From positions 1 to 25,490 of the IMG/VR virus record IMGVR_UViG_3300032893_000259: a stretch of 25,490 bases of DNA; one strand, given 5' to 3'. The position numbers and the translations under genes were made by a program. How positions within the stretch are numbered: position 1 is the stretch's first letter; each line of letters opens with the position of its first letter. This document shows positions 1,540-24,884 of the stretch, one piece after another. Source of the DNA: a virus. Below the pieces are notes generated by a model. It was not told the DNA's origin, ran no database searches, and saw nothing but the letters and a program-made list of their open reading frames with translations.

Positions 1540-1724
1540 CACGCGAATGTCCTCCCGATCAGCAGCACGACGACACGCGCCTCCTGGCCCTCGCGTTTCC
1601 ACACGACGCGGCTGACCTCGAACTTGCCCGCGGGCAGCTCGACCCAATCGCCGCGCTGCGGCACGTGCTCGGTCGAGCCGGTCGCGATCGTGTCGCCCTT
1701 AAACTGGTAGTCGATGGGGATCAT
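1539..1724 (-). CDS. Small hypothetical protein (61 aa), possible beta-barrel fold
   Basis: A 61-residue protein, MIPIDYQFKGDTIATG..., with alternating hydrophobic/polar strands and a WVELPAGKFEVSRVVW segment that suggests a small all-beta fold. The ATG at 1724-1722 overlaps the upstream stop as ATGA. A slightly longer frame reaches 1745 but lacks that coupling. The function is not recognisable. Its stop overlaps the next ATG (TGATG), consistent with coupled translation. Confidence 0.6.
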   Translation of the reverse strand: MIPIDYQFKGDTIATGSTEHVPQRGDWVELPAGKFEVSRVVWKREGQEARVVVLLIGRTFA

Positions 1725-3133
1725 GCGGCTCTCCACGCCCGCCACAGGTCCCTGAGCAGGCGCTTTTCGACGTACCGCTGAGAGCGGCGATGAATCTTCA
1801 TCAGCGACCGGAACCCGTGCGCATCCTGGTCACGCGGATCGCCGACCTTGGCCGGCCGGACTTCAAGGCCCGCAGCCTTCGCCTTCTCGATCTCGTACGC
1901 CTTGCGCAAATTGTACAGCTCCTTGTAGGCGTTCTGCTTCTTGAGCAGTGAGTCGCCGATGACGAACATCACCGAACGCCGCCGCGTGGAGTACCCGTGG
2001 GCGAGCGCAAGCGCCGGGTCCGAGAACCGCTGCTGGCGGATGCCGTCGACGAGCCCGAGCCCAAAGCGCTTCCACAGTTTCGCGGGGTTCGCGTAGATGG
2101 ATAAGTCGCCGGCCTCGCCGATGATCTGCGCGAACCCGAGCGCTCCGAACCCGCAGATCGGTTCCACGAACGTCGCGTAGGCGGGATGCGTCATGGCGAG
2201 CTTTTGCAGCTCGCGCTCGATGCGTGTGCGTTCGCGCTTCAGGTAGCGCTGTGCGGCGCGCAGTTGGAAGGTGGCAGCGAGGACGCCACCAAATTGGTTA
2301 ACGTCCGTATCGTGGTCCTCGCTACCGGAGGCAATCTTAGGCAGGGTATCTCCCGCTGCGTGGCCTCCATTCAAAGGGGCGGATGCAGACGATGCGGTCA
2401 TGGTAGACGGCAAGGCGGTGGCCTGCATCCGTCGTTCGATCGCTTTGCTCTGGCGTGCGAGTGAGCCCTCGGCGTTCAGGAAGTCCTGACGGCGCCGGTG
2501 CAGCTCCTTGATGGTGGCGACGAGGGGAGACAGGCCAGACCTGGGTGACTTGCCTTCTGTGATCTCCCCGTCGCCGGGAAGGATCGCAGCAAGAGGCGTG
2601 GTGACAGCGGGTGCCACTTGTCGTGTGGCCTCCTCCTGCGAAAGGGGCGGGGAGGAAGGCACCGCGCGAACGGGGGACTTGTGCTTGCTGGCCTTCCTCC
2701 CCTTTGAAGTAGACGCCGAAGAAAGCGCTGCAACACTGGGTGACGGTGCGACACCGGCCCTCTTCGGCTTGGAACGGGTCGGCGAAGAGGGCGCGGATGG
2801 TGTGGATGACGGGGCGCGTGCGGCCCCCTCCGCCTTTGAAGGTGCGCGCGGCGAATACTGCTTGGGTGACGTGCAGGACCTGGCCGCGCGCTTGGAACGA
2901 GAGGGAGGCGGCGTCGCAGGTATGGGTGCCGAAACAGTTGTGGCCGCCTCCGGTGAAAGAGAGGCAGGAAGCATCACGCCTTCGGGTGACGTCACGTCAA
3001 TGGCCTCCTGCCGTGAAAGAGAAGGGGCAGGCGGCGTTGGGCTGGGTAACGTCAAGACCGCGGCCTGCCCCAGTGAAAAGGGAGCGGCGACACGGTCGTC
3101 TTGGATGTCAATCGAAGTGTGGTCGCCGCTCAT
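1721..3133 (-). CDS. Repeat-linker protein with IS110-transposase-like C-terminal domain
   Basis: A 470-residue protein. Residues about 18-195 are a Pro/Ser/Ala/Thr/Lys-rich tract of 20-22-residue repeats. Residues about 200-315 are helical and likely coiled-coil, with a low-complexity insertion. Residues about 320-470 resemble the Transposase_20 half of IS110/IS1111 transposases: a HhH-like FVEPICGFGALGFAQIIGEA, then GDLSIYANPAKLWKRFGLGL, then a basic helix region (YSTRRRSVMFVIGDSLL) and a C-terminal RSQRYVEKRLLRDLW helix. The N-terminal DEDD RuvC-like domain of true IS110 enzymes is not visible, so this is probably a DNA/RNA-binding relative and not an active transposase. The ATG at 3133-3131 overlaps the upstream stop as ATGA. 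It lies directly after the AAA ATPase and the 176-aa gene, which suggests a role in phage DNA metabolism (inference). Confidence 0.7.
   Translation of the reverse strand: MSGDHTSIDIQDDRVAAPFSLGQAAVLTLPSPTPPAPSLSRQEAIDVTSPEGVMLPASLSPEAATTVSAPIPATPPPSRSKRAARSCTSPKQYSPRAPSKAEGAARAPSSTPSAPSSPTRSKPKRAGVAPSPSVAALSSASTSKGRKASKHKSPVRAVPSSPPLSQEEATRQVAPAVTTPLAAILPGDGEITEGKSPRSGLSPLVATIKELHRRRQDFLNAEGSLARQSKAIERRMQATALPSTMTASSASAPLNGGHAAGDTLPKIASGSEDHDTDVNQFGGVLAATFQLRAAQRYLKRERTRIERELQKLAMTHPAYATFVEPICGFGALGFAQIIGEAGDLSIYANPAKLWKRFGLGLVDGIRQQRFSDPALALAHGYSTRRRSVMFVIGDSLLKKQNAYKELYNLRKAYEIEKAKAAGLEVRPAKVGDPRDQDAHGFRSLMKIHRRSQRYVEKRLLRDLWRAWRAA
2543..3079. repeat. Degenerate in-frame tandem repeat, 60-66 bp units
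   Basis: On the plus strand the anchor GGGTGAC (or a 1-2 mismatch variant) occurs at 2543, 2609, 2672, 2738, 2804, 2864, 2924, 2984 and 3044. Spacings are 66, 63, 66, 66, 60, 60, 60 and 60, all multiples of 3. About 16 nt after most anchors there is a second partly conserved block of the type TGGCCTCC...GTGAAAGAGA. On the coding minus strand each unit encodes a 20-22-residue module of the type APSLSxxEA...SPxxxxxP. Confidence 0.8.
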
Positions 3134-3660
3134 GACAGGTTCTCCCACAGCCTTTCGAGCTGCTTGTCGGTAAACTGATCGCGCACCCGCTTGTTGACCG
3201 GCAACTTGCGCATAATCTCGGAGTAAAACGCGGCGTTGCGCTTTAGCCCCTTGATCTCGTCGTGCTTGGTCTCGATCGCGTGCTTCAGATCCACCTGCAG
3301 CGCGTCTCCGAGCCGCACGCCATTCGGCAGCAGTTCCATGTCGAGCCAGCGCATCTGCAGCCGCGCGACCGCTTGCAGCCCGCTCGCGTCGTCCTTGTTC
3401 GGAACGACCCGCAACTTCTGCCTCGTAAAGAACTCCGCCTGGCGGATGAAGTAGCGGCTGGCCGAGGCAATGATCGCCCTCGCCAGCACCGGATCATCCG
3501 CGGCGCGCGATTGCAGCAACTGGATCGCCTTCTCGCGGTTGTAGTTGCTTTGCGCAAGACACTCGTCCGCGATCACGCTCAGCTTCGTCGCCGCAGCGGG
3601 TTCGATGTCGGCGACGGCCGACTGCAGAGTACTGCCGGCTGAATCCGTCATGGCACTCAT
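3130..3660 (-). CDS. Hypothetical protein (176 aa), helical, beside AAA ATPase
   Basis: A 176-residue, predominantly helical, charged protein. It begins MSAMTDSAGSTLQSAVADIE and contains a helix-rich core (residues about 25-75) and a basic C-terminal half (KHDEIKGLKRNAAFYSEIMRKL). No catalytic motif or zinc site is visible. The ATG at 3660-3658 overlaps the ATPase stop as ATGA; a second Met at residue 4 is possible. Its position between the AAA ATPase and the IS110-like protein suggests a partner or loader in replication or recombination, but this is context only. I do not recognise the family. Confidence 0.75.
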   Translation of the reverse strand: MSAMTDSAGSTLQSAVADIEPAAATKLSVIADECLAQSNYNREKAIQLLQSRAADDPVLARAIIASASRYFIRQAEFFTRQKLRVVPNKDDASGLQAVARLQMRWLDMELLPNGVRLGDALQVDLKHAIETKHDEIKGLKRNAAFYSEIMRKLPVNKRVRDQFTDKQLERLWENLS

Positions 3661-5771: not shown

Positions 5772-5938
5772 CGCTTCTCTCCCCTCAGCGGCGTGACGTT
5801 CCTACGCGGCTCCAGCATCAGCACGTTCTTGCCGCTCCTCGTGAACGCGCACACGAGGACGTGCCCGTAGCGGTTCGCCCATTCATCGAGCGACCGCAGC
5901 GGCGCGCGCTCGATCGCCGTGGGGTGGACGAGAATCAC
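5768..5938 (-). CDS. Small hypothetical protein (56 aa)
   Basis: A 56-residue protein starting at GTG 5938-5936, chosen because it overlaps the upstream TGA as GTGA. An ATG in the same frame at 5962 would intrude on the upstream gene by 28 nt. The sequence has a mixed alpha/beta look with a hydrophobic strand (YGHVLVCAFTRSGKNVLML) and a basic tail. No family recognised. Confidence 0.55.
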   Translation of the reverse strand: MILVHPTAIERAPLRSLDEWANRYGHVLVCAFTRSGKNVLMLEPRRNVTPLRGEKR

Positions 5939-6633
5939 GCAGCCTCCGTGAGCCAGAGCCACTGACAGCCAGGCGCGTTCATGTCGATGAGGATCTGCAC
6001 GATCCGCTCGGCATAGTTAGCCAACACGCGGTCCCGTTCGGCGGCGGCGTAGGCGGCGGCCTCGGCGTCGGCGGCGGCGTAGGCGGCGTCGGCGGCGTCG
6101 GCGGTGCAGGCGGCGGCGTAGGCGGCGGCCTCGGCGGCGGCGTCGGCGTCGGCCTCGGCGGCGGCGGCGGCGGTGCAGGCGGCGGCTCGCGCCTGCAGGG
6201 CATTATGGCGCGTGGGTTCGTTCTCACATGCTGCGGCCGCAGATTCCAGCGCGTCCTTGTGGGCCGCATTTCGCTTCATGTCCGCAGCCGCTCGCAGGGC
6301 CATGGGGACGTACACCTGAATGGCGAGCGTCACGACGCGCTTGCGGAACTCGGCTTCGTCCAGAACGCCTGCGCTGCCAAGCTGCGCGACCGCGAGACGC
6401 CGCATCCCCTTGGCGCGGGCCTCGTTGCTCGACCATACCGAGTCGTTGAGCCGGATCTTGAGCGAGCGAAGGACGGGCGCGACGCACTCCGGCTTATCCC
6501 CGTGCGGCTGGCCGAGCGCGTAGCACACGGCGGCCTCCACGCACATCTGGCCGGGGATGGGCTCCCCAACGCCGGCGCAGAGTCCTGCGTCCACGACGGT
6601 GAGCAGCTTGCGGGCGACGGTTTCGTTGATCAC
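5935..6633 (-). CDS. Ala-rich hypothetical protein (232 aa)
   Basis: A 232-residue protein. Residues 1-115 look globular (RKLLTVVDAGLCAGVGEPIP... with MCVEAAVCYALGQP). Residues about 145-197 are an Ala-rich low-complexity stretch of short blocks such as EAAAYAAACTADAADAAYAA. A normal-looking 35-residue tail (ERDRVLANYAERIVQILIDM...) follows. The start is GTG at 6633, with AGGAG 7 nt upstream. Similar Ala/Tyr-rich tracts occur in phage proteins of unknown function. The tract is probably a long helix or flexible spacer. Confidence 0.7.
   Translation of the reverse strand: MINETVARKLLTVVDAGLCAGVGEPIPGQMCVEAAVCYALGQPHGDKPECVAPVLRSLKIRLNDSVWSSNEARAKGMRRLAVAQLGSAGVLDEAEFRKRVVTLAIQVYVPMALRAAADMKRNAAHKDALESAAAACENEPTRHNALQARAAACTAAAAAEADADAAAEAAAYAAACTADAADAAYAAADAEAAAYAAAERDRVLANYAERIVQILIDMNAPGCQWLWLTEAA
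6039..6188. repeat. GGCGGC/GTAGGCGGC low-complexity tract within CDS
   Basis: About 150 bp built almost only from GGCGGC, GTAGGC and GTCGGC words; on the minus strand these are Ala codons mixed with Tyr, Asp and Thr codons. It preserves the reading frame of the gene at 5935-6633. Such a tract is prone to slippage and to assembly collapse, so its exact length should be treated with caution. Confidence 0.75.
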
Positions 6634-12518: not shown

Positions 12519-15161
12519 ATGGCGAAAGCCAAAGCCCCGCTGAACCGCGGCACGATGCAGCCCACGAAGCCGCAGCGCCAGCCGAAGCCGGACCTACGCT
12601 CGCCGCGATCACGGAGCGTGCTGGCTGATCCCGACCAGTCACAGGGCGCGAACACGCCCGCGAAAGTCGGCGCGAACCGTGCAGCGGGCGCAGCGCTCAA
12701 CCAGCCGGCCGCTGTCGGCACCGTCAACACGCCAGGGCAGCCGGTGCCGAGCGGGCAGGTGAAGGTCGACCCGCTCTATCCGCCCGTCGGGCAATCAGGC
12801 GCGAGCGGTGTTGGACCGATTCCACCGACCGACCCGATCGACCCTCCCCACCAGTTCAAGCCGCTGGAGTCGGTTGCCTACCAGAGCTCGATGCTCTACG
12901 GCAACTACGACTTCCCGCGCTACAACTCGGACGCACTGATCGGGCAGCGTGGACTTGCCGTCTACGACCGCATGATGGTCGACGAGCAGGTCAAGGCGGT
13001 GTTGCACTTCAAGCGCGACGCGATCACCGCGCGGCCATGGTCGTTCAAGTACGAGGACGGCGAGGACCGCATCGACGAGGACGAGCAGCAGCGCCGCATC
13101 AACATCATGAACTGCAGCGTGCGCGCGATGAAGGGCTCGTTCATCGACGCGATGAACTACGTCCTGCGCGGGCTGCAGTTCGGCTACTCGCTGACGGAGA
13201 AGATCTACGACTACACCGAGATCGACGGTGCGCTGTACTACTACATCCGCGAGATGCGCGCGAAGCCGCTCAACACGTTCTACTTCGTCGCCGACCAGTA
13301 CGGCAACCTGACGCAGTTCTACCAGTTGATCGGCGGGTTCAAGAACTTCCTCGACATCCGCAAGTTCGTGTACTACGTGCACCAGCCCGAGGAGGACTGG
13401 CTGTTCGGCCGCTCGGAACTGCGCGCAGCCTATCGCTCGTGGTTCTCCAAGGACGCGATCATCAAGCTGTGGAACCTGTGGATGGAACGCACCGCAGGCG
13501 GGTTCCTGATGATCGAGCGCGCGCCTGGCTCGCAGCTCATCACGCAAGGGACGCCCGAGTACAACGACCTGATGGCCGCGATGGCCGGCATCACGACCTC
13601 AAGCTCGCTCTTGCTGCCGGAAGGGTTCAAGGCATCGCTGGTCCAACCCGGCAACACCGACCAGTTCAACAGCGCGCTCGTGTGGCATAACACGGCGATC
13701 GCGAAGTCGCAGCTCGTGCCGAACCTCCTGGGCGTCAGCGAGCAGGGCGTGCACGGCTCGCTCGCGCAGTCGCAGACGCAACTCGAGGCGTTCATGTGGA
13801 CGCTGACCAACATCAAGGTCAGGCTCGAGGACACGCTGCAGGAGCAGGCGTTCAACGACGTCTGCGAGCAGAACTTCGGTGACGGCATCTACCCGAAGTT
13901 CAAGTTCAACCCGATTTCCGATGCGCAATTGCAGTGGATCATCACGCAATGGACGACGATGGTCGGCGCTGGCGTCCTGCACCTGACCGCGAACGACGAG
14001 ATCTGGCTGCGCAAGATCCTCGATGCCCCGTCGATCACCGCAGACCAGATCGAGGAACTCGACGCGCAGAAGCAGCAGAATGCGCTCGACATCGCGAACG
14101 CGACGAAGCCGATCGCATCGAACGCCGCGAAGCAGGAATCCGGCAGCCCTGACGCTGGCGGCATCAAGGCGAACGCCAACACCGAGAAGGCGCAGTACCG
14201 CGCACACACCAAGGATGGCAAGCCGCGCACCGTGACCATGGCGGCGTTTTCGCGCGCCTGCCAGCGCGTCGACTTCTCCGTGATCGAGCACCGCGCGATG
14301 ATGATTTCGTCATCCGCCCGCCAGACGGTGGCGCGCGCGATGGCCAAGGGACTCGCACGCCAGTTGGAACCGGCGCACCTCAACGACCTACTTAAGACAC
14401 CGGAGCTGGTCGGCCAACTGGCGTTCGATAAATCAGACGTGGCGCGGGTGAAGGTCGCCTGCCGCGCCGCCTTGCAGAACGGGTGGAACCTTGGACAAGA
14501 CCAGGCCGCACGGGAAATCGCTCAGGCTAAGAAACTGCGTGCGTCGCGCGCTAAGTTCAGCGCCCTCGATGACGCCGCCGGCTTCCTCGAGGCCAACAGC
14601 TTCAGGATGGCCGGCAACCTCACCGACGGCGCCCGCGCGATCATCCAGCAGGAACTCCTGAACGCGATCAAGTCGGGCGACACGAACGCGGCGCAGATCA
14701 GGACCAACATCCTCGAGCGGCTCATCAACAAGGGCTACATCGACCTCGCTGCGGTGAGCGATTCGCCGATGGCTGACTCGATGCAGGCGCTCAAGGAAAC
14801 GCTGGGACCGGACGCCGACGAGAACAAGTCGCCGTACATCGACACGCTCGTGCGCACCAACGTATTCGAGGCGTTCAACGAGGCGCGGTACGCGCAGTTC
14901 AAGGACCCGGACCTCGATGGGTTCGTGGTCGCGCTCGAATACAGCGCGATCCTCGACGATCGCACGACGGAGATCTGCACCGAACTCGATGGCGTCGTGT
15001 GGGACGAGGCGAATCCGCTGTGGGACACCTACCGGCCGCCGAACCACTACAACTGCCGTTCGATCCTCGTGCCGATCACCGCCGTCGATGGCTGGGACGG
15101 CAAGGAGGACGGTGTGCCTGGCGTTGTACCACAGGATGGATTCGGAGCAGGTGACAAATGA
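12519..15161 (+). CDS. Portal protein fused to MuF-type head morphogenesis domain
   Basis: An 880-residue fusion. Residues 1-105 are a Pro/Gln/Lys-rich disordered leader. Residues about 120-510 are a portal protein of the Mu gp29/DUF935-like type (YDRMMVDEQVKAVLHFKRDA; RSELRAAYRSWFSKDAIIKL), the dodecameric DNA channel at the capsid vertex. Residues about 690-870 are a Mu gpF/SPP1 gp7-like domain with TLVRTNVFEAFNEARY and the terminal PPNHYNCRS motif of that family. Portal and MuF are separate genes in Mu and SPP1, but fusions occur in other phages. It would seed capsid assembly and may carry MuF into the virion. A GGAG precedes the ATG by 11 nt. Confidence 0.9.
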   Translation: MAKAKAPLNRGTMQPTKPQRQPKPDLRSPRSRSVLADPDQSQGANTPAKVGANRAAGAALNQPAAVGTVNTPGQPVPSGQVKVDPLYPPVGQSGASGVGPIPPTDPIDPPHQFKPLESVAYQSSMLYGNYDFPRYNSDALIGQRGLAVYDRMMVDEQVKAVLHFKRDAITARPWSFKYEDGEDRIDEDEQQRRINIMNCSVRAMKGSFIDAMNYVLRGLQFGYSLTEKIYDYTEIDGALYYYIREMRAKPLNTFYFVADQYGNLTQFYQLIGGFKNFLDIRKFVYYVHQPEEDWLFGRSELRAAYRSWFSKDAIIKLWNLWMERTAGGFLMIERAPGSQLITQGTPEYNDLMAAMAGITTSSSLLLPEGFKASLVQPGNTDQFNSALVWHNTAIAKSQLVPNLLGVSEQGVHGSLAQSQTQLEAFMWTLTNIKVRLEDTLQEQAFNDVCEQNFGDGIYPKFKFNPISDAQLQWIITQWTTMVGAGVLHLTANDEIWLRKILDAPSITADQIEELDAQKQQNALDIANATKPIASNAAKQESGSPDAGGIKANANTEKAQYRAHTKDGKPRTVTMAAFSRACQRVDFSVIEHRAMMISSSARQTVARAMAKGLARQLEPAHLNDLLKTPELVGQLAFDKSDVARVKVACRAALQNGWNLGQDQAAREIAQAKKLRASRAKFSALDDAAGFLEANSFRMAGNLTDGARAIIQQELLNAIKSGDTNAAQIRTNILERLINKGYIDLAAVSDSPMADSMQALKETLGPDADENKSPYIDTLVRTNVFEAFNEARYAQFKDPDLDGFVVALEYSAILDDRTTEICTELDGVVWDEANPLWDTYRPPNHYNCRSILVPITAVDGWDGKEDGVPGVVPQDGFGAGDK

Positions 15162-19377: not shown

Positions 19378-19620
19378 GTGACCGACGAAACCCGAAGCAA
19401 TGAGCAATGGCACGCCGACATGACGGCGTGGGAGAAGCGTCTTGCCAGCCTCGAGAGCAGTCTTGCGCAGCAGCAGGTCATGCTGACGCACACGGCGAAG
19501 CTGCTAGAGCAGAAACAGGCGCGCATCGACGAGGACCGCGATGCGCTTGGCCGGCTTCTCCAGCGGGCACGGGAACGGGCGCCCGTGAATGTCAGCATCA
19601 CCGTCAACGGGGGTGCATGA
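19378..19620 (+). CDS. Coiled-coil small protein (80 aa)
   Basis: An 80-residue protein dominated by one long charged helix (HADMTAWEKRLASLESSLAQ then QQVMLTHTAKLLEQKQARID), with a short strand-like end (NVSITVNGGA). The start is GTG at 19378, with GGGAGG 6-7 nt upstream. Reads as a trimeric or dimeric coiled coil with a cap, as in minor fibre or chaperone proteins, but there is no direct evidence. It ends 1 nt before the glycosyltransferase ATG. Confidence 0.6.
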   Translation: MTDETRSNEQWHADMTAWEKRLASLESSLAQQQVMLTHTAKLLEQKQARIDEDRDALGRLLQRARERAPVNVSITVNGGA

Positions 19621-19621
19621 C

Positions 19622-22600
19622 ATGGAAATCGTACTGCACTGCCTCGGGTTGCCGTTCAACGGCTCGACCATCTACGAAGGCTCGCTCGGCGGCTCGGAGA
19701 CGGCCGGCTACTACCTGGCTCGTGAACTCGCCAAGCGTGGGCACAAGGTCCGCGTGTTCACGGCCATGGGACCTGACGGCGAGGGCACGTTCGACGGCGT
19801 GAGGTACCTCTCGGCTGGCCAGCCGAGTGAGGAGACGCCATTCGGGTCGAAGTTCCACTCGTGGTGCACCAAGACCCCGCACGACGTCCTGATCGTGCAG
19901 CGCCAGCCGCGCGCGTTCCACTACCAGTGGGCGAGCAAGATCAACATCCTGCAGCTCCACGACCTCGCGCTGTTCCGGCAGGCTAACGAGGTCGGCGATG
20001 CGCTGTGGAACGTGAGCGCGTTGACGTGCGTCAGCGACTGGCACGCAGACCAGGTGTCCAAGGTCTACCCGATCCCGCGCGAGAACATCGATGTCGTGCG
20101 CAACGGTGTCGACCTCGATCTCTACGACTGCCCGCCGAACGAGGACATCGCCCGTGAGGACACGGCATTCAAACTCCTGTACCAGTCGCGGCCCGAACGT
20201 GGACTGGAACATCTCGTACGGCCCGGCGGGATCATGGAGCGTCTCGCTGATACCGCCGCGCTCCTGTACGTGTGCCGTTACGACTGCACCGTCCCGCAGA
20301 TGCGCTCGGTCTACGAACAGCTTGACGCGTGGTGCGACCGGCTGCCGAACGTCGTCATGCTCGGCGCGCTCTCGAAGCCGAAGCTCGCGGCCGTGCAGAA
20401 GGCGTGCGACCTGCTCGTCTACCCGACGGAGTTCGAGGAGGTGTCCTGCATCTCCGTGATGGAGGCGATGGCGGCCGGCCTGCCTGTCCTCGCATCGAGG
20501 CACGCTGCGCTTGTCGAGACCCTTCACGGGTGCAAGGGTGCGCATCTCGTCAAGATGAAGCTCAACGGCAAGGGCCCGGAGGTCGACGAGGAAAAGTTCG
20601 CCAACATCATCCGGGCGTACATCGATGGGCAGGCGATCGGCACAGCCGGTGGCGAGCACCAAGACCCGAAGATGCGTGAGTGGCAGCGCGAGTCTGCACA
20701 GTCGCGTACATGGGCGCACGCCGCAGACCAACTCATGGCGGTGATCGACCGTGAGATGGGCAAGCGCAGTGGCAACGCCGCCGCGGTCCTCAAGTCAGCA
20801 ATCGAAGTGGCTGACATCGACACGGCAGAGGCAGTGATCGAGGCAGGCGTCACTGGGCCGAATGCGATCTTCGAGCGCGCCGCAGCCGAAGTTCGCACGA
20901 TGTACAACTTCCGCTTCACCGCGGAGTCGTACGCCGAGCACTACCTCAAGCACCAGTCGAAGTATTACGACGAGCACGAGGAGGACGTGATCGGCGAGGA
21001 CGTCTCGCACACGGCTCGTTTCCGTGCGACCGTCTCGGCGATGTCGAAGAAGCTGCTCGCCGCGAAGGGCGCTGGGCTCCGCATCCTCGACTACGGCTGC
21101 GCCCACGGGCACTACCTGATGCCGCTCGCCAAGAACGCACGCAAGTGCGAGTTCACGGGCGTCGACATCTCCGGCCGCGCGATCGCAGCCGCGATGAAGT
21201 GGATGGTCAAGGACCAGCTCCACAACGTCACGCTCGTGCACGGTGGCGAGGAAGCGCTGACGCGGCACATGCTGTGTCCGTATGTCCACGAACAGCGCGT
21301 GCATCCTGCCGTGCCCGAGGAAAGCGAGGAGTGGACAGAGGCGATCATCAAGTACGACCCGGAGACAGGCAAACAGCTTTACGACCCGGACCGCTACGAA
21401 CTGTTCGACATCATCCTCGCTGGCGAGGTGGTCGAGCATGTGTGGGATTATCGCGGCCTGATCGAGAAGTTCCGCGGCTTGCTGAAGCCCGACGGTCTGC
21501 TCGTCATCACGACACCGTATGGCCGCTGGGAATGGATCGGGCACGAGGCGTACAAGACAGGCCGCGAGCACCTGCATCACTTCACCCGCGCCGACCTGTA
21601 CGAACTGTTCGCTGGCCACGAGGTCGAGGTGTGCTGCGCGGCCCACGGCGGCGACGAGGCGGGACTGCCGATCGGCTCGTTCGTCACCTCCGTCACGTTC
21701 ACGCCCGACGTGCCCCTCGGGACCATCGATGCTGAGCGGCACCGCCGCGAGTTTTCGGCGCGTCAAACGGTGAGCGCCTGCCTGATCGTCAAGGATGGCG
21801 CCAACCACCTGCGGACGGCGCTCGATTCGATCGCCGCGCACGTCGACGAGGTGGTCATCGGCATCGACAAGGGCACGACCGACACGACCGAGCTCGTCAT
21901 CGAGGCGTTCAGCCTCGACAATCCGTGGTTGCCTGTGCGCACGCTGTTCATCGAGTCCCCGGTCGTCACCGGGTTCGACGTCGCCCGCAACACGGTCCAC
22001 GACGAGGCTGCGGGGCAGTGGATTCTGTGGATGGATGCCGATGAGAACGTGATCGACTCGCAGAACCTGCACAAGTACCTGCGGCCGTCGCTCATCAGCG
22101 CCGTCCACTTCCCGCAGCAGCATTACTCGGCGCAGCCGGCGCAGGTACTGACGACAGATCACCCGTGCCGTCTGTTCCGTAATGACGGCCGGACGCGGAT
22201 CTACGGCGTCGTGCATGAGCACGCGGAGTCGGCGCCTGGCGAGGGTGCGCCGCAGGCGATCATGCGCGGCGACGTGCAGTTCGCGCATTCCGGCTACGTC
22301 ACCGAGGCGGTACGCCGCAAGCGGTACGAGCGCAACATGCCGCTGCTGCTCAAGGACGTCGAGAAGTACCCGCAGCGCAAGCTCAACCAGTTCCTGCTGA
22401 TCCGGGACCTCGCGCAGGGCATCGTGTTCGACTCGCAGCGCCATGGCGGCGTCGTGACGGCCAAGAACCGGGAGGATGCCGAGCGCGCGATCAAGGTGTT
22501 CCGGTCGATGATCGACCAGGACCATCCGGCGACGAGCAGACTGCTGATCGATGCGCTCGACTACTACTCGGTCTGCGTCGAGGTACTCGACACCGGGTTC

Positions 22601-22750
22601 GAGGCCGAGGTGAGTTTCAAGCTGCTGAATCCGCCGCTCAAGGCGGCATCGGCCGTGAAGGGTCGCTTCTACAACCGCGAGCACTTCACGGCATTGACTG
22701 ACCGGCTTTTCAAGGAGGCCACCAAGTACTATGAGCAAAAGTATTTTTGA
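19622..22750 (+). CDS. Trifunctional GT4 glycosyltransferase-methyltransferase-GT2 glycosyltransferase
   Basis: A 1042-residue fusion. Residues about 1-390 are a GT-B family 4 glycosyltransferase: GSLGGSETAGYYLAREL near the N-terminus and the donor-site segment FEEVSCISVMEAMAAGLPVL. Residues about 420-700 are a class I SAM methyltransferase: motif I ILDYGCAHG (about 488-497), later LAGEVVEHVWDYRG and LKPDGLLVITTP. Residues about 716-950 are a GT-A family 2 glycosyltransferase: VSACLIVKDG start and DAD metal-binding triad at 805-807 in WMDADENV. It would build a short glycan and methylate a sugar or other group in one polypeptide. Whether the target is a virion protein or the host surface is unknown. 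The ATG follows the preceding stop by 1 nt. Confidence 0.85.
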   Translation: MEIVLHCLGLPFNGSTIYEGSLGGSETAGYYLARELAKRGHKVRVFTAMGPDGEGTFDGVRYLSAGQPSEETPFGSKFHSWCTKTPHDVLIVQRQPRAFHYQWASKINILQLHDLALFRQANEVGDALWNVSALTCVSDWHADQVSKVYPIPRENIDVVRNGVDLDLYDCPPNEDIAREDTAFKLLYQSRPERGLEHLVRPGGIMERLADTAALLYVCRYDCTVPQMRSVYEQLDAWCDRLPNVVMLGALSKPKLAAVQKACDLLVYPTEFEEVSCISVMEAMAAGLPVLASRHAALVETLHGCKGAHLVKMKLNGKGPEVDEEKFANIIRAYIDGQAIGTAGGEHQDPKMREWQRESAQSRTWAHAADQLMAVIDREMGKRSGNAAAVLKSAIEVADIDTAEAVIEAGVTGPNAIFERAAAEVRTMYNFRFTAESYAEHYLKHQSKYYDEHEEDVIGEDVSHTARFRATVSAMSKKLLAAKGAGLRILDYGCAHGHYLMPLAKNARKCEFTGVDISGRAIAAAMKWMVKDQLHNVTLVHGGEEALTRHMLCPYVHEQRVHPAVPEESEEWTEAIIKYDPETGKQLYDPDRYELFDIILAGEVVEHVWDYRGLIEKFRGLLKPDGLLVITTPYGRWEWIGHEAYKTGREHLHHFTRADLYELFAGHEVEVCCAAHGGDEAGLPIGSFVTSVTFTPDVPLGTIDAERHRREFSARQTVSACLIVKDGANHLRTALDSIAAHVDEVVIGIDKGTTDTTELVIEAFSLDNPWLPVRTLFIESPVVTGFDVARNTVHDEAAGQWILWMDADENVIDSQNLHKYLRPSLISAVHFPQQHYSAQPAQVLTTDHPCRLFRNDGRTRIYGVVHEHAESAPGEGAPQAIMRGDVQFAHSGYVTEAVRRKRYERNMPLLLKDVEKYPQRKLNQFLLIRDLAQGIVFDSQRHGGVVTAKNREDAERAIKVFRSMIDQDHPATSRLLIDALDYYSVCVEVLDTGFEAEVSFKLLNPPLKAASAVKGRFYNREHFTALTDRLFKEATKYYEQKYF

Positions 22751-24200: not shown

Positions 24201-24884
24201 ATGCTCACGTTCGAGCTTCGGGCGTTGCACCAGATCGAGATGACCTCGAACTGCAACCTGCGGTGCCGGTACTGCCCCTCGCCGCACCTGCAGCGTCCGA
24301 AGCTCCACATGAGCGACGAGCATTACACCAAGTCCCTCAAGTGGGCGACGTACTTCGTGCGCACGCACAAGCAGCGCGAGCTCAACCTCGCAGGCATCGG
24401 CGAGTCGACCATCCACCCGGAGTTCGTGCGCAATGTCCACCTCGCTCGTGAGGCTGTTGGGGATTCATGCGACCTTGTTCTTGCTACGAACGGCGTCGTG
24501 GTTACTGACGAGCTTGCTCGTGCTATTGCTCCTGCCCGTCCTCGTGTGTGGGTCAGCAATCATCGTCCTGAAAAATCAGGTCCTGCGATTAACGCCCTAC
24601 GGCGAGCTGGCGTCCTCGCGGGCACGTCGAATGATCCGGCCGAGCACGCGATCAATTGGGCCGGCCAGGTCAAGTGGGAAGTGAGCGTTGCCGGCAAGCG
24701 GCACTGCCAGTGGGTGACGAGCGGCCGGTGCATGGTGATGGCCGATGGCCGTCTCACGCGCTGCTGCCTCGATGCGAGCGGTTCGGGCGTCCTCGGCACG
24801 ATCGACGACGACCTCACCAAGATCCGCACGTCGCCCTACGTACTCTGCAAGACGTGCGACGAGGACGTGGGAGTGCCGGTGTAG
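24201..24884 (+). CDS. Radical SAM enzyme with SPASM-like C-terminal Cys cluster (227 aa)
   Basis: A 227-residue enzyme. CNLRCRYC (C18, C22, C25) is the CX3CX2C motif that binds the SAM-cleaving 4Fe-4S cluster. GIGEST near residues 65-70 fits the GGE-type SAM contact. The C-terminal cysteines (C169, C177, C188, C189, C216, C219), with RCMVMADGRLTRCCLDASGS and CKTC, look like a SPASM or twitch auxiliary-cluster region that often handles peptide substrates. The protein is shorter than usual for such enzymes. The ATG has GGGAGG about 6 nt upstream. Codons 82-136 have an aberrant synonymous composition (35 of 55 end in A/T, against 5 of the first 81 and 11 of the last 91). The substrate is unknown. 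Confidence 0.85.
   Translation: MLTFELRALHQIEMTSNCNLRCRYCPSPHLQRPKLHMSDEHYTKSLKWATYFVRTHKQRELNLAGIGESTIHPEFVRNVHLAREAVGDSCDLVLATNGVVVTDELARAIAPARPRVWVSNHRPEKSGPAINALRRAGVLAGTSNDPAEHAINWAGQVKWEVSVAGKRHCQWVTSGRCMVMADGRLTRCCLDASGSGVLGTIDDDLTKIRTSPYVLCKTCDEDVGVPV
24433..24684 (+). CDS. Possible overprinted membrane ORF inside the radical SAM gene (83 aa)
   Basis: A +1-frame ORF with ATG at 24433, a GGAG box 10 nt upstream and a stop at 24682-24684. Residues about 8-50 are strongly hydrophobic, with LLTSLLVLLLLPVLVCGSAI as the core, then a basic tail. The hydrophobic part coincides with the patch where the host frame changes to T-ending codons. T-ending Ala, Leu, Pro and Arg codons themselves create Leu codons in this frame, so the segment may be a by-product. 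A lysis or membrane role would be speculation. Confidence 0.25.
   Translation: MSTSLVRLLGIHATLFLLRTASWLLTSLLVLLLLPVLVCGSAIIVLKNQVLRLTPYGELASSRARRMIRPSTRSIGPARSSGK

Follow-up and report, generated by a model that had tools for sequence, protein, structure and literature searches.

The window, meaning the whole stretch of DNA analysed here, is a virus record of 25,490 bases. An 880 aa open reading frame at 12519–15161 (+) joins a Mu-type portal to a Mu F-like head morphogenesis domain (Pfam), and a major head protein and a head protease are also encoded in the window. A capsid protein pattern search of the viral_contigs collection gave no close phage relatives; capsid homologues at 43–52% are found in the records of five of the relatives described below. 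The late region carries, upstream of the radical SAM gene, a 1053 aa open reading frame (19589–22750, +) that combines a GT4-type glycosyltransferase, a methyltransferase and a GT2-type glycosyltransferase. On the other strand, the C-terminal part of a 475 aa protein (1721–3148, −) is similar to NCBIfam NF052498 (TIGR-Tas RNA-guided endonuclease; E-value = 7.6e-26, 91.4 bits with a cut-off of 100). This protein has a Ser/Pro/Ala-rich N-terminal half and no Pfam match, and no tandem guide-like array was seen nearby. A DNA methylase gene (N6_N4_Mtase; 118–822, −) displays 40% A/T-ending codons, far above its neighbours, and is probably a recent arrival. Short GGC/GTC-type repeats (TCGGCG units) at 6038–6186 give an Ala-rich stretch in the open reading frame at 5935–6633 (−).

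The radical SAM gene, at 24201–24884 (+), encodes 227 amino acids with a CxxxCxxC motif (C18, C22, C25) and four further cysteines (C169, C188, C216, C219). All seven are invariant in 43 sequences. The protein matches Pfam Radical_SAM PF04055 (E-value = 1.8e-08), and its AlphaFold2 model has a mean pLDDT of 96.2. The closest PDB fold is BtrN (4m7t, TM-score 0.70). Both marks of the superfamily, the CxxxCxxC motif and the radical SAM barrel, are therefore present, and they are shared with the SPASM/twitch-like enzymes, among which BtrN gives the best fold. The protein differs from BtrN in having only 17% identity with it and scores below every curated NCBIfam cut-off. A PDB sequence match to a designed propeller (E-value = 5.7e-13) was dismissed: it arises from the summing of repeats, and no stretch passes on its own.

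A codon-use island in the radical SAM gene

Codon use changes abruptly within the gene. A recount gives 5 A/T-ending codons among codons 1–81 (4 of them T-ending), 35 among the 55 codons from 82 to 136 (24444–24608; 29 T and 6 A), and 11 among the 91 codons from 137 to 227 (8 T-ending), exactly as an earlier note on this DNA had counted them. The gene outside codons 82–136 thus has 16 A/T-ending codons in 172. Codons 82–136 are the most extreme segment in a scan over all segments of the gene, and a count of 35 per 55-codon window was reached by none of 20,000 codon shuffles, whose maximum was 27. A two-change-point fit places sharp edges at codons 82 and 136 (24444 and 24608), with an uncertainty within 2 lnL of codons 77–83 and 135–138, and its gain is 31.7 lnL versus at most 15.8 in 60 shuffles. 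Of all such islands in the window it is the strongest by a wide margin (22 of 30 codons), and other genes show nothing comparable. The codon island is real and statistically extreme.

The island is not uniform. Its 5′ part (24444–24569, codons 82–123) lies beneath the hydrophobic segment of the +1 frame described below and has a T:A ratio of 25:1. Its 3′ part (24570–24608, codons 124–136) lies past the main hydrophobic run and is still rich in A/T-ending codons (9 of 13), with a T:A ratio of 4:5. The two ratios differ with a Fisher P of 0.002 (0.03 for four-fold codons plus Ile), a comparison to be read with caution as the split at codon 123 was picked post hoc, with the data already seen.

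In the protein model the island encodes strands 91–96 and 115–119 and helices 103–112 and 123–136. These two beta-alpha units are modelled as well as the remaining barrel, and the invariant residues N97, G98 and H121 are encoded within the island. Thus the radical SAM frame is the real gene across the island. An assembly chimera or a patch of locally biased mutation is unlikely. In its favour, the island is carried by only one contig; against it, the frame and protein are intact and the fold is confident. A chimera would moreover require shared k-mers at both ends of two allele switches 165 bp apart. In four-fold boxes, C3 falls from 42/90 to 5/39 inside the island and G3 from 40/90 to 6/39. 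The loss of both misfits one-way deamination, and one-way C-to-T mutation was rejected because G3 drops too.

The +1 open reading frame over the island

The earlier note had also pointed to an open reading frame in the +1 frame with a GGAG box and a long hydrophobic run over the island, and these are present in the sequence. The open reading frame (24433–24684, +) starts with ATG and has 83 codons; the GGAG (24419–24422, +) lies 10 nt before this ATG, within codons P73–E74 of the radical SAM gene. An open second frame, a start and a ribosome site, as looked for in a nested gene, are therefore all found. The +1 frame is, however, open from 24313 onward, well upstream of the island, and thus the island is not what opened it.

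The window contains 70 nested non-gene open reading frames of at least 60 aa, and 48 of these have at least 83 aa, so that the length of the +1 open reading frame is ordinary. Its hydrophobicity is the highest of the 70 (best 19-residue mean of 3.04), and an SD core is in place in only four of them. When the synonymous codons of the island are permuted, the +1 frame has no stop in 16% of cases (P = 0.16) and its mean hydrophobicity is as high in 11% (P = 0.11), while the 19-residue hydrophobic peak is as high in 2.5% (P = 0.025). When all island codons are simulated as T-ending where possible, 99.8% are stop-free and the +1 hydrophobicity is always equal to or above that observed. A T in the third position of the host frame is the second position of a +1 codon, and Leu, Val, Ile or Phe results. 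The caveat of the earlier note, that T-ending codons alone generate Leu codons in the +1 frame, was correct, and this is the main cause of the hydrophobicity. Composition explains most, perhaps not all, of the +1 pattern, and the hydrophobic +1 frame looks to be mainly a by-product of the codon patch.

Another possibility is that the +1 open reading frame is a recent gene limited to this lineage. It would encode a small membrane protein of holin or lysis type, with one or two transmembrane segments and a basic tail, and selection for its hydrophobic segment would have driven the T-ending codons in the radical SAM frame. The open ATG frame with GGAG at 10 nt, the top rank in hydrophobicity among nested open reading frames, the peak above that of permuted synonymous codons, and the excess of T over A confined to the hydrophobic part would all agree with such a protein. 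There is also a textbook precedent in phiX174, where E, a Leu-rich lysis protein, arose in the next frame over T3-rich D codons (PMC8227390). E in D and the +1 frame are alike in that T3 of the host frame is position 2 of the nested codons and yields a Leu-rich transmembrane segment. They differ in that T-richness is here local, an island within a gene otherwise GC3-rich; conservation of the nested frame is lacking, and its product is putative. Weighing against this origin, an open frame is expected in 16% of permutations, the overall hydrophobicity is not unusual under permutation, the island extends past the hydrophobic run, and the +1 protein has no homologue in viral_contigs and no match in Pfam, PHROGs or NCBIfam.

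Relatives of the radical SAM gene

In viral contigs, a scan for this gene found 79 loci, and 69 encoded proteins, a few of them near-identical, were codon-aligned. Bacterial genomes yielded just generic radical SAM proteins of at most 33% identity. Across codons 78–161, +1 stops are found in 68 of the 69 relatives, all of which keep the radical SAM residues; the sole exception is L041. In 35 non-redundant GC-rich relatives there are 125 +1 stops versus 122 expected from synonymous permutation, and the +1 frame is thus unprotected in the family. The second frame is neither conserved in relatives nor are stops avoided there. All these relatives have at most 65% protein identity to the window protein, and a very young, lineage-limited +1 gene would be beyond their reach.

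The nearest relative is L007 (65% identity). Among 70 radical SAM genes, its own (L007:3001–3669) ranks second by strength of the A/T3 island, which lies at codons 100–161 as aligned to the window gene (27/62 versus 16/161). This island overlaps that of the window gene but is shifted by 18 and 25 codons at the two ends. The L007 +1 frame contains a stop and the hydrophobic run is absent. Thus a codon island occurs here without a membrane open reading frame. Identical A/T-ending codons are found in L007 and the window gene at 109–111 and 122–125, a small number that hints at a shared or related source.

A/T-rich alleles of the gene are also found in the wider family (L042, L047 and L040). L040 and L047 have stretches with T:A ratios of 16:1 and 20:1 and six stops in each +1 frame, and thus an excess of T over A arises without overprinting. 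Such an excess is not common. A T excess of at least 0.9 is present in 0.6% of 625 A/T-rich windows of related loci. The radical SAM gene shows it in L040 and L047, with 5 of 336 overlapping windows.

Taken with the relatives, the suggestion in the earlier note of an overprinted membrane or lysis peptide is not supported. The radical SAM residues are kept while the +1 frame is stopped in nearly all relatives, a pattern which that note had itself named as refuting the idea, stops are as frequent as expected, and L007 has an island without the open reading frame. A newborn overprinted membrane protein, possibly for lysis, caught at its origin, with a stretch of the enzyme recoded to T-ending synonyms in one lineage and its nearest relatives without it, would be a distinctly improbable account of the data, and the +1 open reading frame is most likely non-functional. 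The idea is mechanistically sound but is without comparative support here.

Selection acting locally on synonymous codons without a second protein might have served co-translational folding through slow codons, or an internal promoter or RNA element; this is somewhat less improbable but still unlikely. The island ends where a helix ends, at residue 136, and the overlapping island in L007 would agree with a local function. However, A/T3 is not raised over the segment family-wide (mean z 0.08, P = 0.56, with column means near zero), and a family-wide codon feature was rejected as the cause of the island on this ground. A search of the island for an internal promoter or terminator found no such site, and RNA structure was likewise rejected (fold z −1.25, with neither an Rfam match nor a tRNA).

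Recombination as the probable origin of the island

The island is probably a mosaic patch within the gene, a short segment taken over from a diverged allele rich in T3. About 165 bp of the GC3-rich radical SAM gene (codons 82–136, two beta-alpha barrel units) would have been replaced, and homologous recombination between strongly conserved sequences is the probable route. The flanking motifs GIGESTxHP (residues 65–73) and WAGQVxW (residues 153–159) could be the exchange sites. The donor would be a lineage that favours T-ending codons and carries a diverged allele, of which the corresponding segment would have been taken over. The protein would have stayed normal after the replacement, and the imported T-ending patch would read as Leu, Val, Ile and Phe in the +1 frame that was already open, giving it the look of a membrane protein.

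We infer both the recombination and the kind of donor from several features. Composition switches sharply within a single gene (at codons 82 and 136 in the two-change-point fit), as expected of a recombination patch; the switch is at synonymous positions, with loss of both C3 and G3; and A/T-rich alleles exist in the family. The offset, overlapping islands of L007 and the window gene fit repeated segment exchange.

Some results count against recombination. The T:A ratio of 25:1 over the first 42 island codons is uncommon even in AT-rich windows, and other genes on the relatives' contigs show no clear mid-gene island of this kind. Among the strongest islands listed in those genes, one of L034 looked on inspection like a spurious antisense open reading frame, and the others were judged by position to be probable untranslated leaders of stop-to-stop open reading frames. 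Phage and plasmid collections, searched at the DNA level for a donor, gave short chance matches only. Among viral contigs none comes near the patch; the best has 63% DNA identity over the island. Identity of the window protein to the others within the patch follows identity elsewhere, as it does for other members (r = 0.86, rank 30 of 70), and amino acid data thus display no phylogenetic incongruence, although with 55 residues and relatives at no more than 65% this comparison has little power. Import by recombination of part of a diverged gene copy, also raised in the earlier note, remains the best explanation, but neither a donor nor amino acid incongruence accompanies it.

A similar pattern is described for psbA of Synechomyovirus, where patchy GC was ascribed to intragenic recombination (PMC3900582). 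Both are phage-carried enzyme genes with internal patches of differing composition. However, the psbA pattern was reported from several phages forming a group, while the island here is found in one contig with no donor identified.

If the +1 frame were expressed, a de novo gene would here be seen at its birth, which is rare. If the island is a recombination patch, it would be a clear case of a short import that mimics an overprinted membrane gene, a mimicry relevant to gene finders that infer nested genes from hydrophobicity and anomalous codon use. The offset islands in two lineages suggest that, in this group of phages, segments of the radical SAM gene may have been exchanged repeatedly.
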